Shown piece after piece: positions 32,414 through 64,000 of a stretch of 64,000 bases of DNA; within the stretch, counting starts at the first letter, position 1, and each line of letters opens with the position of its first letter. The stretch covers positions 2,304,001-2,368,000 of the forward strand of contig NZ_WIQK01000001.1 of the NCBI RefSeq assembly GCF_015732155.1, given 5' to 3'. The translations under genes were made by a program, and so were the position numbers. The stretch is from Pectinatus sottacetonis. GTDB lineage: Bacteria > Bacillota > Negativicutes > Selenomonadales > Selenomonadaceae. The notes beneath the pieces are model-generated. The model was given only the letters and a program-made list of their open reading frames with translations. It did not search any database and had not been told where the DNA came from.

Positions 32414-32722
32414 ATGAACAAGATCCCCAAAAATTTATCAGATAAAGATATGTTTAAAGAATATAAGGAAGAAAAGAAAAACAGATCGTTATTTGACATA
32501 GCTAATGAATTCGATAAGCATATGAGTCGTGAAAATAAAAACAATGTTCAACAAGATCAAGGTTATATAAACAAAGAACTTGCTGACAGGCTGGAAAAAG
32601 AATTATTGAAATTAAAACTTGACTTATATAAAGAAGATATCGTTGACTATAAAATAAAAGTTCACAGAGAGGGTAAAAATATAATTCTAACTCCTGTGGT
32701 GAAATCAAAATATAAGTCATAA
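32414..32722 (+). CDS. Small protein of unknown function (102 aa)
   Basis: A 102-aa, highly charged, mostly helical protein: DMFKEYKEEKKNRSLFDIAN near the start and ELADRLEKELLKLKLDLYK in the middle, then a beta-like end with YKIKVHREGKNIILTPVVKS. No known domain is recognised. ATG 32414 has AAGGAAG 8 bases upstream and overlaps the stop of the membrane-protein gene (TAATATG, 2-base spacing). The frame could be read from 32369, but that part lies in the upstream gene. Probably the last gene of the polyamine operon. Confidence 0.75.
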   Translation: MNKIPKNLSDKDMFKEYKEEKKNRSLFDIANEFDKHMSRENKNNVQQDQGYINKELADRLEKELLKLKLDLYKEDIVDYKIKVHREGKNIILTPVVKSKYKS

Positions 32723-32736
32723 AAATAACATTAGTA

Positions 32737-32883
32737 TCAGGCAGATTTTATCTTATGCCAGGGACGGACTATATACTTGTTTTTCTTTAAACACGGTTTA
32801 ATACAGGCTTCAATAGCAGTGTAACGTGCTAAGACTCTGAGATCCTTTGCTTTTATGATACAACTGTAGCCTAAATGTTTCAT
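32737..32883 (-). CDS. 48-aa basic protein divergent from an S24 repressor (unrecorded small gene)
   Basis: An uncatalogued short frame. ATG at 32883 (minus strand) is preceded by TGGAGG with an ideal gap, and upstream lies a promoter, TTGCAA (32975-32980), 17 bp, TATTAT (32952-32957 on the plus strand reads ATAATA). The product (MKHLGYSCIIKAKDLRVLAR at the N-terminus, then a KPCLKKNKYIVRPWHK end) is basic with three cysteines (8, 27 and 31). It matches no family I recognise. It lies divergently from the repressor gene at 33075, so both may be controlled from the shared 190-bp region. The ribosome site and promoter together support it. Confidence 0.65.
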   Translation of the reverse strand: MKHLGYSCIIKAKDLRVLARYTAIEACIKPCLKKNKYIVRPWHKIKSA

Positions 32884-32951
32884 TTTATTTACCTCCAGAA
32901 AAATAAATTTAGCTTTCTTAAAAAATAAATTCGGTTTTCTTTATAAAGATA

Positions 32952-33050
32952 ATAATACAATACCATATAAAATTTTGCAAGTCGTTTTTCAACTTTATGA
33001 ATTTTTACATGGGGATTTTAGTTGATTTTTCCGAACGAATTAAGTATACT
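32952..33050. promoter_or_regulatory. Back-to-back promoters of the 48-aa gene and S24 repressor
   Basis: Minus strand: TTGCAA, 17 bp, TATTAT. Plus strand: TTGATT (33022-33027), 17 bp, TATACT (33045-33050). The plus spacer holds CCGAACGAATT. A dyad, AAGTCG-N5-CAACTT (32979-32995), borders the minus -35. These are the natural places for the S24 repressor to bind, but no operator is proven. Confidence 0.55.
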
Positions 33051-33074
33051 AAATAAAAACTGGAGGTTTAAGTT

Positions 33075-33689
33075 ATGACTGATTTTGCTAAAAAGTTACG
33101 AGAATATATGACAGAATCTGGAATGAATCAAACTAAACTGGCCAGATTGACAGGTATAAATAAATCTTCGATATGCGAATATTTATCTGGAAATTATGAG
33201 CCAAAACAAAAAAATGTCTTAAAAATAGCTGCTGTGTTAAATATTCCGCCAGATTATTTTTGGGGGATGAGTATTCCAGAAAAAAAAGGGAAAAAAAATG
33301 AGAATGAAATAAAGAAAGTTCCTCTAATTGGTAATATTGCTGCTGGGAAACCTATTCTTGCAGTGCAGGATTTTGAGGAATATATTCCCTGTGAGAAATC
33401 TATAAGAGCTGATTTTTGTCTACGTGTTTCTGGTGATAGTATGATAAATGCCAGAATATATGATGGCGATATCGTATTTATTCATGAACAGGCAGATGTA
33501 AATGACGGAGAAATTGCTGCGGTATTAGTTGATGATAGTGCCACGTTAAAACGTGTTTATAAGTATGGAAATATGGTGCAGCTGCGCGCAGAAAATCCTA
33601 AATATAAACCTATGGAGTTTAATAGAAATAACTGTAATGACATTCGTATCTTAGGTAAAGCTGTTGCTTTATTGGGAAATGTTTTTTAG
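33075..33689 (+). CDS. LexA/CI-like self-cleaving transcriptional repressor (XRE + S24)
   Basis: A 204-aa repressor. Residues 1-65 form an XRE helix-turn-helix (MNQTKLARLTGINKSSICEY). Residues 90-204 are an S24 peptidase domain with the predicted Ala-Gly cleavage site in NIAAGKPI, the serine of SGDSM near 128, and the lysine of ATLKRVYKY near 165. Such proteins cut themselves when RecA is activated by DNA damage and then release their operator. It is not LexA itself by length and layout. It sits divergent from a 48-aa gene. Start ATG follows TGGAGG. The phage-type origin is inferred; no other phage genes are near. Confidence 0.88.
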   Translation: MTDFAKKLREYMTESGMNQTKLARLTGINKSSICEYLSGNYEPKQKNVLKIAAVLNIPPDYFWGMSIPEKKGKKNENEIKKVPLIGNIAAGKPILAVQDFEEYIPCEKSIRADFCLRVSGDSMINARIYDGDIVFIHEQADVNDGEIAAVLVDDSATLKRVYKYGNMVQLRAENPKYKPMEFNRNNCNDIRILGKAVALLGNVF

Positions 33690-33707: not shown

Positions 33708-34052
33708 TTGTCTGAAAATAAGGTTAAAACAGGGAACAAAATGTTTAAGCAGGCTGTAAATGCCTGTATTTGTAATGCAAAGGCAGCATTAAATGCCAGC
33801 AGGAATAATGATAATAAGAGTAATTCTGCGGCATTGGCATATTTGTGTCAGGCCCATAGCTGTGTAAAGCAAATTCAATTATTTTCAGTTATTGAAGGAA
33901 CCGTCAAATATGATAAGTTTTATGATGCCTTTATAGATTTTAATAATGTTTTTATTAGGATGGCAGCAAATAAAATAACATCGGATATTCTGGAAAAATA
34001 TAATGTGTTGCTTCAAGAATATGATAAATTGACTTTTGTGGAAAATGTATAA
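33708..34052 (+). CDS. Small helical protein of unknown function (114 aa)
   Basis: A 114-aa protein not recognised. The sequence is largely helical, with SAALAYLCQAHSCVKQI in the middle and a hydrophobic/aromatic end, YDKFYDAFIDFNNVFIRM. Two CxC or CxxC-like spacings (ACICNAK; CQAHSC) are visible but do not make a known metal site. It starts at TTG 33708 with AGAGG 8 bases upstream, 19 bases after the repressor stop, so it is probably co-transcribed and may be damage-inducible. A start at ATG 33741 is possible but poorly placed. Confidence 0.68.
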   Translation: MSENKVKTGNKMFKQAVNACICNAKAALNASRNNDNKSNSAALAYLCQAHSCVKQIQLFSVIEGTVKYDKFYDAFIDFNNVFIRMAANKITSDILEKYNVLLQEYDKLTFVENV

Positions 34053-62235: not shown

Positions 62236-64000
62236 ATGCCGAAGGAAAAAGATATAAAGATCATGCCATTACTACCGCTTAGAGGAATAGTAGTTTTTCC
62301 TTATGTGATAGTAAATCTTGATGTTGGACGTGAAAAATCTATTGCAGCATTGGAAGAAGCAATGGTTCGTGATCATAAAATATTGCTGAGCGCACAAAAA
62401 GATCCAGCTGTTAATGATCCAGTGGAAGAAGATATTTATGATATAGGAACTGTATCCGAAATACGGCAACTGTTAAAATTGCCTGGTGGGACAGTGCGAG
62501 TTTTGGTTGAAGGTATGTATCGTGCTAAAATTAATAAAATAAACTTTTTGGATAAATATTGTGAAGCTCAGGTAACAGAATATAGGGAAGATAAAAAAGA
62601 TGTTTCCATAAATATGGAAGCGTTAATGCGTGCTGTAGTTAACCAATTTGAACAATGGGTAAAACTTAGTAAAAAAATCCCCCCCGAAACACTTGTTTCT
62701 GTAGTAATGATTGAAGATGGCGGGCGTCTATGTGACTTGATAGCAAGTCATATGAATATGAAACTGGAAGATAAACAGGAATTGTTGTCACTTATTGATG
62801 TAACTAAACGTTTGGAGAAATTATATGAAGTATTGTCACGTGAAATGGAGATACTTGGCATTGAGCAAAAAATAAGTGAACGGGTTCATAAGCAGATGAA
62901 TAGAATTCAGAAAGAATATTATCTGCGTGAACAGTTAAAAGCCATTCATAAGGAACTAGGGGATAAGGATCAGGTAGGAACGGAAATTGACAGCTATAGG
63001 ATTAAAATGGCAAGGAAAAAACCACCCACAGCAGTTATTGAGTGTATAGAAAATGAAATAAAACACCTATTGAATACACCGCCAGGCTCATCTGAATCAG
63101 GCGTTATCCGTACTTATATTGATTGGCTGCTGGCTCTTCCGTGGAAACATGTAAGCAGGGATAAGCTAAATATAAAAACAGCAGAACAAGTTTTGGAAAA
63201 AGACCATTATGGCTTGAAAAAAGTAAAAGAACGCATCTTGGAATATTTAGCAGTACGTAAATTGTCAAAAGGTACAAAAGCTCCTATTATTTGTCTGGTG
63301 GGGCCTCCCGGTGTAGGTAAAACATCTCTGGCAGCATCTATTGCTAAGGCTATAGGAAGAAAATTTGTCAGAGCATCATTGGGTGGTATTCGTGATGAAG
63401 CTGAAATACGTGGGCACAGGCGTACTTATATAGGGGCATTTCCTGGAAAAATAATAAGCGGAATAAAAAATGCTGAAACTAAAAATCCGGTATTTTTGCT
63501 TGATGAGATTGATAAAATGGCTTCGGATTTTAGAGGAGATCCTTTATCTGCATTGTTAGAAGTTCTTGATCCTGAACAAAACAGCACTTTTTCAGATCAC
63601 TATATTGAACTTCCTTTTGACTTATCACAAGTTTTCTGGATTGTTACAGCAAATAATCTGAGCAGGATTCCGCGGCCACTTAGAGATAGAATGGAAATAA
63701 TAACACTGCCAAGTTACACGGAAGAAGAAAAGTATCAGATAGCTAAACAATATCTTGTAAGTAAACAGCTGGCAGCGGCCGGATTAAAAAAAGCTCAATT
63801 ACAGTTTATGGCGGGATCATTGCAAAAAATTATTTCTGACTATACACGTGAATCGGGAGTTCGTGAACTAGAAAGACAAATTGGTGCCGTATGCCGTAAA
63901 GCAGCAAAACGGATAGTGGAAGAAGAAAAAAGTAAAATACGTGTCACTAGTAAAAATTTACATGAATTTCTGGGTCGGGAAAAATATGAGCGTACACATA
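62236..64000 (+). CDS. lon: ATP-dependent protease Lon, 5' part (runs off the window)
   Basis: The open frame from ATG 62236 reads 588 codons to the window end without a stop. Lon-type N-terminal substrate domain (LPLRGIVVFPYVIVNLDVGR); a helical middle; then AAA+ with Walker A VGPPGVGKTSLAASIAKAIG near residue 355 and Walker B FLLDEIDKMASD near 418; the sensor and C-terminal AAA helices follow. The serine-lysine protease domain would lie beyond 64000. Start ATG follows GGGAAG. The tig-clpP-clpX-lon order is typical of Firmicutes, where these genes handle misfolded proteins. Confidence 0.96.
   Translation, partial: MPKEKDIKIMPLLPLRGIVVFPYVIVNLDVGREKSIAALEEAMVRDHKILLSAQKDPAVNDPVEEDIYDIGTVSEIRQLLKLPGGTVRVLVEGMYRAKINKINFLDKYCEAQVTEYREDKKDVSINMEALMRAVVNQFEQWVKLSKKIPPETLVSVVMIEDGGRLCDLIASHMNMKLEDKQELLSLIDVTKRLEKLYEVLSREMEILGIEQKISERVHKQMNRIQKEYYLREQLKAIHKELGDKDQVGTEIDSYRIKMARKKPPTAVIECIENEIKHLLNTPPGSSESGVIRTYIDWLLALPWKHVSRDKLNIKTAEQVLEKDHYGLKKVKERILEYLAVRKLSKGTKAPIICLVGPPGVGKTSLAASIAKAIGRKFVRASLGGIRDEAEIRGHRRTYIGAFPGKIISGIKNAETKNPVFLLDEIDKMASDFRGDPLSALLEVLDPEQNSTFSDHYIELPFDLSQVFWIVTANNLSRIPRPLRDRMEIITLPSYTEEEKYQIAKQYLVSKQLAAAGLKKAQLQFMAGSLQKIISDYTRESGVRELERQIGAVCRKAAKRIVEEEKSKIRVTSKNLHEFLGREKYERTH

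Follow-up and report, generated by a model that had tools for sequence, protein, structure and literature searches.

A 48-codon open reading frame lying back to back with the gene for a phage-type repressor raises the question of whether so short a frame is a gene at all and, if it is, what kind of circuit the two genes form. The pair is found in a window of Pectinatus sottacetonis DNA, by which we mean the whole stretch of 64,000 nucleotides that was analysed, in a genome of 2.69 Mb assembled in two contigs. Comparisons within the genus were made on a set of five Pectinatus genomes, comprising the window's genome and those of P. haikarae, P. frisingensis, P. cerevisiiphilus and P. brassicae. 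The first-pass annotation of the window had suggested that the pair could be a small domesticated stress switch with the 48-aa protein as its output.

The small gene occupies positions 32737..32883 on the minus strand, begins with ATG and encodes a basic microprotein. It is preceded on the same strand by a GGAGG ribosome site at 32892..32896 (CCTCC on the plus strand), present in all five species, and by a promoter recognized from its sequence, TTGCAA-17-TATTAT at 32952..32980, whose -10 columns are kept in all five, as is the TTG of its -35 element; frame, start codon, ribosome site and promoter were each present where the first-pass annotation had put them. Homologues with 67-77% identity adjoin the repressor gene in all five genomes and are always divergent from it, with the start in register and the stop conserved as well. 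The sole gap in the alignment is one whole codon, variable columns at codon positions 1, 2 and 3 number 19, 14 and 39 of 48 each, and dN/dS is 0.07-0.15 in the six of ten pairs with computable dS, the other four being saturated. The 48-codon frame is a real gene under purifying selection. Constraint is strongest over residues 1-28 of the protein, and its conserved core reads MKHLGYSxIIKAxDLRVLARYxAI.

Across the five species the protein carries a net charge of +8 to +10 and lacks a membrane segment, its highest 19-residue Kyte-Doolittle mean being 0.6-1.0, and structure prediction returned one helix at low confidence (mean pLDDT 66). It had no match in Pfam, including the helix-turn-helix (HTH) families, in NCBIfam or in PHROGs, the last remaining empty even at E 10, and an Rfam scan of the 3.6-kb locus of the pair gave nothing at gathering scores. 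Searches of 100 relatives and of 189 genomes of the family each returned five matches, all in Pectinatus, with none in the 184 other family genomes. Conservation of the pair, proposed earlier as a check, was borne out within the genus by the frame and ribosome site kept beside the repressor in all five genomes. The first-pass annotation had also named what would count against the gene, namely relatives that keep the repressor without the frame or its ribosome site; no Pectinatus genome is of this kind, but two Megamonas genomes, described below, keep the repressor and have no small gene.

The surroundings of the pair are equally stable in the genus. Frames of 266, 102 (32414-32722) and 114 (33708-34052, downstream of the repressor) residues flank it in all five genomes, with 35-67% identity outside the window's genome. 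Neither of the latter two has a family over cut-off, and the 114-aa frame has weak matches to DUF6698 and phrog_20330 (for the latter, E 4e-4 and 21 bits). The neighbourhood also encodes a saccharopine dehydrogenase and a PTS protein. The absence of other phage genes nearby, as first described, held for the seven proteins examined with Pfam, the pair included, and for the two direct neighbours compared with PHROGs, with the exception of the weak phrog_20330 match.

The 204-aa repressor is encoded at 33075..33689 on the plus strand, with a promoter, TTGATT-17-TATACT, at 33022..33050 and a GGAGG ribosome site at 33062..33066 on that strand, both identified from sequence and alignment. The protein matches HTH_3 and Peptidase_S24 over the Pfam cut-offs, and the PHROG that fits it best is that of a phage transcriptional repressor. 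Against the TIGR00498 lexA family, whose cut-off is 110.95 bits, the S24 half reaches 121.6 bits, and the closest solved structures are LexA S24 domains. Ala90-Gly91, which we take to be the cleavage site, and Ser122 and Lys159, presumably the catalytic pair, with roles carried over from LexA, are invariant in all seven homologues (five Pectinatus and two Megamonas), in agreement with the cleavage motif and catalytic residues initially assigned to it. No match to the LexA_DNA_bind domain (PF01726) was found by Pfam; the repressor has the S24 domain, the Ala-Gly site and the Ser/Lys dyad of LexA and not its winged helix. It has two traits of a co-opted phage S24 repressor of the HdiR or FddR kind, joining an HTH_3/CI-type domain to S24 and being a resident chromosomal gene in all five Pectinatus genomes, which are without canonical LexA. 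Together with the Pfam, PHROG, NCBIfam and alignment evidence, a tree of repressor sequences points to a LexA substitute. In this 53-row tree, whose midpoint root serves for drawing only and whose bootstrap had not settled, the five Pectinatus rows group together as a clade, and a branch with support 98/98 separates them, the two Megamonas rows and LexA from 44 rows of phage, clostridial and other origin.

Two genomes outside Pectinatus, G010 and G038, we infer to be Megamonas. They carry a repressor 62-64% identical to that of Pectinatus, with a nearly identical recognition helix, and neither has a match to the 48-aa protein. The gene sits after a glycerol-3-phosphate dehydrogenase gene, whose family was scanned in G010 only, and no homologues of the 266-, 102- and 114-aa neighbours were found within the 12 kb surrounding the repressor gene in either genome.

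Pectinatus appears to have lost canonical LexA. PF01726 was found over cut-off in 41 of the 60 genomes searched as against none of the five Pectinatus, two of which have sub-threshold matches (21 bits against a cut-off of 23.7) in frames of 156 and 1237 residues. The Megamonas genome G010 likewise has only a match below cut-off, of 20.4 bits in a 351-aa frame. G038 lay outside the PF01726 survey, and there the repressor search gave three matches, all of them full-length HTH-S24 proteins. The absence is not peculiar to Pectinatus, since other genera (e.g. G007, G014, G015, G019, G021, G028, G029 and G031) are also without the domain over cut-off. As a separate observation, HTH-S24 repressors 52% identical to that of the window occur in G066 and G084, from another family of the class, where several GTTGATT-type repeats stand upstream of the gene; G066 is also without canonical LexA over cut-off. 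These repressors may be a parallel case with a different operator.

The intergenic region had been described as holding back-to-back promoters with dyads between them, and both promoters were recovered, with the dyad O3 between them and a near-dyad, O1. Site O1, GTTGATTTTTCCGAAC at 33021..33036, is a 16-base near-dyad overlapping the -35 element and spacer of the repressor promoter, and its sequence is the same in all five Pectinatus genomes. Site O2, ATTCGGTTTTCTTTAT at 32929..32944, covers approximately +1 to +16 of the 48-aa transcript if the start deduced from the promoter is correct. Two others are possible weak operators: the dyad O3, TTCAACTTTATGAA at 32988..33001 between the promoters, and O4, ATTTAGCTTTCTTAAA at 32907..32922 in the leader of the small gene, which has four mismatches to the palindrome described below and columns mostly kept in the five species.

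The motif of O2, RTTCRG-N4-CTTTAY in most species, reappears immediately upstream of the recA -35 element. This likeness was first spotted by eye and was therefore tested with a matrix built from the five O2 sites alone. With that matrix the recA promoter was the top place of the 3.8-kb recA locus in four of the five Pectinatus genomes, with scores of 15.6-19.5 and a position 117-118 bases before the domain match; only 1-2 of 127970 window positions reach such scores, O2 itself among them. P. sottacetonis, the species of the window, has a degenerate recA site (ATTCAGCTTTCCGTAT), and there the matrix scores another place of the locus higher. The matrix reached at best 7.5 on recA of four LexA-bearing relatives, and nothing comparable was found at recA of eight other genomes (best 9.5), all but one of which were shown to be without LexA over cut-off.

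Both Megamonas genomes have a related site beside the recA -35 element, GTTCGGTTTTCTGAAC in G010 and GTTCGGAAACCTGAAC in G038. The palindrome GTTCRG-N4-CYGAAC occurs once genome-wide in G010, where the sole exact copy is the recA site, and twice in G038, as against none and one for a control pattern. The second exact copy in G038 (L198:1501-1516) precedes a 112-aa frame that has a weak match to a phage-integrase domain, and it may mark the remains of a mobile element controlled by a repressor of this kind. The O2 matrix gives the G038 recA site only 9.3, a score that 18 window positions attain. In the reverse comparison, O1 fits the Megamonas palindrome at 10 of 12 fixed positions, a fit that two other places in the window equal, and by the Megamonas matrix O1 is not the best palindrome of the window, since position 63562 scores higher. 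Two good matrix matches elsewhere in the window (56396 and 63562) fall within coding frames. Autoregulation is not seen in Megamonas, because no palindrome with up to one mismatch occurs in the 12 kb around either repressor gene.

Beyond recA the regulon looks small. Among the matches listed for exact TTCRGNTTTCTTTA in the five Pectinatus genomes there are nine, of which four are O2 and three are recA sites; this pattern was derived from those very sites, so the count shows its rarity and not its independence. Allowing one mismatch gave 117 places against 114 for a control, and it is this lack of enrichment that makes the regulon appear limited. The contexts of the one-mismatch matches were compared across the four Pectinatus species other than that of the window, over 90 loci (89 listed matches in 88 loci, excluding the known G003 recA match, plus L140 and L152), and the six cross-species homologous pairs found included no shared intergenic site. 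When whole genomes were probed with O1, three mismatches being allowed, the counts were only modestly above control in each genome, for instance 53 against 35 in that of the window. A regulon including uvrB or dinB was considered and rejected, as the O2 matrix gave no comparable site in 10 uvrB and dinB upstream regions of Pectinatus (best 11.6). Operator-like sites are found at the repressor's own promoter and, in four of five species, at recA, the recA site of the window's species being degenerate, and none comparable is found at uvrB or dinB.

Evidence on the origin of the microprotein comes from P. haikarae. A profile of the five 48-aa proteins finds three near-identical loci there (E 1.7e-5 each) that carry a 36-aa open frame, MYRSTIIRAKDLRVLAKMELIEAWLKSLKRSKKLKK, matching the core of the 48-aa protein; in alignment with the chromosomal proteins, 13 columns are invariant. 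The first of these frames belongs to a prophage early region that also contains genes for a cro-like HTH protein, Lar, DUF2800, a phage ssDNA-binding protein and an HTH-S24 repressor. Copy two is flanked by the same frames, and copy three shares the one downstream. Because the core of the 48-aa protein matches this prophage frame, the small protein has phage relatives as the repressor does, and both halves of the switch look phage-derived. The repressor encoded about 2 kb from the prophage frame is of a different clade. Descent of the pair straight from the haikarae prophage was rejected, the prophage repressor falling in another part of the tree, as was the idea that the 48-aa protein is a Cro remnant, given its lack of an HTH, of any PHROG at E 10, and its single low-confidence helix. 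Phage records, plasmid records and viral contigs gave no match to the 48-aa protein, and neither phage records nor, by patterns or profile, viral contigs gave one to its 36-aa relative.

Taken as a whole, these comparisons indicate that the repressor is probably a phage-type substitute for LexA, an SOS regulator that controls its own gene, the 48-aa gene and recA. A repressor dimer would bind sites resembling GTTCRG-N4-CYGAAC in three places, namely the promoter of its own gene, the start of the 48-aa transcript and the stretch immediately before the recA -35 element, and would hold all three genes down. Upon DNA damage, RecA filaments would trigger cleavage at Ala90-Gly91, and the repressor gene, recA and the 48-aa gene would then be expressed together. 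The small protein, basic and presumably helical, could have nucleic acid, RecA or some other host protein as its target. As for its role, a damage-induced output of phage ancestry is the most likely reading, held with evenly balanced confidence, and it is favoured because the prophage relative belongs to a cluster of early genes and lies apart from the repressor. More tentative, and on balance doubtful, is the wider proposal that the damage response was rebuilt from phage parts, the repressor having replaced LexA at recA and an early microprotein having been kept as a dedicated damage-induced partner, from an undescribed family modulating RecA or host DNA transactions. The initial idea of a domesticated, damage-responsive switch appears well supported by the synteny in all five genomes, the intact S24 residues, the absence of canonical LexA over cut-off and the operator-like sites at recA. 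The switch seems to reach beyond the pair, as recA appears to belong to the same regulon, and the output role first suggested for the 48-aa protein is plausible, though it may instead be a co-regulator.

It is rather unlikely that the same LexA-substitute repressor has in the 48-aa protein a DdrR-like co-regulator, itself in the regulon, that aids operator binding. The arrangement of umuDAb and ddrR is matched, in that a small gene confined to one LexA-less genus is invariably divergent from the gene of an S24 repressor (PMC7273328, PMC11332147), and the strong constraint on residues 1-28 would suit such a function, yet Megamonas has the repressor and no 48-aa gene, and the prophage relative lies in its early gene cluster, some 2 kb away from a repressor that belongs to a different clade. 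Quite unlikely, too, is a self-contained domesticated phage switch controlling only itself and the 48-aa gene, with the recA sites belonging to another regulator or being fortuitous. The degenerate recA site of the window's species and the lack of genome-wide motif enrichment speak for this reading, and FddR has been presented as a switch of this kind (PMC13148647); the equal placement of the site in four of five Pectinatus recA promoters and the palindrome at recA in both Megamonas genomes speak against it.

Two remaining proposals concern the nature of the small gene. A role as an SOS-induced division inhibitor similar to YneA or SosA is suggested by the position of the gene, as in Bacillus subtilis yneA is divergent from lexA. 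We consider this very unlikely, as YneA-type inhibitors are small and membrane bound (PMC6051672) and the Kyte-Doolittle maxima of the 48-aa protein give no membrane segment. That the frame is untranslated, its conservation reflecting RNA or overlapping signals, is exceedingly improbable: its shortness and lack of a family match are set against the third-position excess, a dN/dS near 0.1, a single whole-codon gap, the conserved stop and ribosome site, and the empty Rfam scan of the 3.6-kb locus at gathering scores.

Co-opted S24 repressors in the place of LexA are already known, as in HdiR, FddR and UmuDAb-DdrR, and what is undescribed here is the microprotein. FddR of Francisella is likewise a co-opted phage repressor with HTH (PF01381) and S24 (PF00717) domains that is found genus-wide and has a divergent gene of unknown function; its motif is GTG-N11-CAC as against the GTTCRG-N4-CYGAAC-like sites of Pectinatus and Megamonas, and ciprofloxacin did not induce recA in Francisella, whereas recA is an apparent target in Pectinatus (PMC13148647). 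UmuDAb-DdrR of Acinetobacter resembles the present pair in being an S24 repressor with a small, genus-specific and always divergent gene in a LexA-less genus, but UmuDAb is a UmuD homologue that controls error-prone polymerases, while the Pectinatus repressor is phage-type with recA as its likely target (PMC7273328, PMC11332147). DdrR, compared here by layout and length, has 78-81 residues against 48 for the Pectinatus protein, which has a prophage relative (PMC7273328). The DdrR-type layout, a genus-restricted gene always divergent from an S24 repressor, was found in all five Pectinatus and in none of the 184 other family genomes.

HdiR of the Streptococcaceae is also a phage-like S24 repressor of LexA-less Gram-positives, and its site, tttATCAGtTtttCTGATaaa, resembles that of Pectinatus and Megamonas (PMC8565304, PMC1592510). 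Its reported targets are itself and umuC in Lactococcus (PMC8565304, PMC1592510) and the cinA-recA and umuC loci in S. thermophilus (PMC8565304), control of recA in the latter having been argued against (PMC1592510). Unlike in Pectinatus, no microprotein partner is described in the relevant portions of these two reports (PMC8565304, PMC1592510). The non-canonical SOS regulators of Bacteroidetes similarly combine a CI-like N-terminal domain with S24 in an SOS network without LexA, but they govern a larger network, form a phylum-specific clade and use a CTAA-N5-TTAG motif (PMC8565304). Among open-licence papers on LexA or SOS in Pectinatus, Megamonas or Negativicutes, or on S24 repressors and recA in Selenomonadaceae, none dealt with this system as judged by titles and the openings of abstracts. 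The locus adds a lineage, Pectinatus and, judging from its recA site, Megamonas, where LexA seems to have given way to a phage-type repressor that recruited recA; in Pectinatus a microprotein with a prophage relative also appears to be fixed in the circuit. Pectinatus, which has the small gene, and Megamonas, which lacks it, offer a natural comparison for the rebuilding of SOS networks.

A final observation concerns uvrB of the window's genome (G000:C1 ~373200-375000, outside the window), which is interrupted by an insert of ~1.8 kb and is uninterrupted in the other four Pectinatus and the two Megamonas genomes. Within the insert lie a group I intron (Rfam RF00028, 69 bits) and, with it, a 369-aa frame of the OrfB_IS605/TnpB type, an IStron-like combination, the IStron being a named kind of element (PMC4227781).
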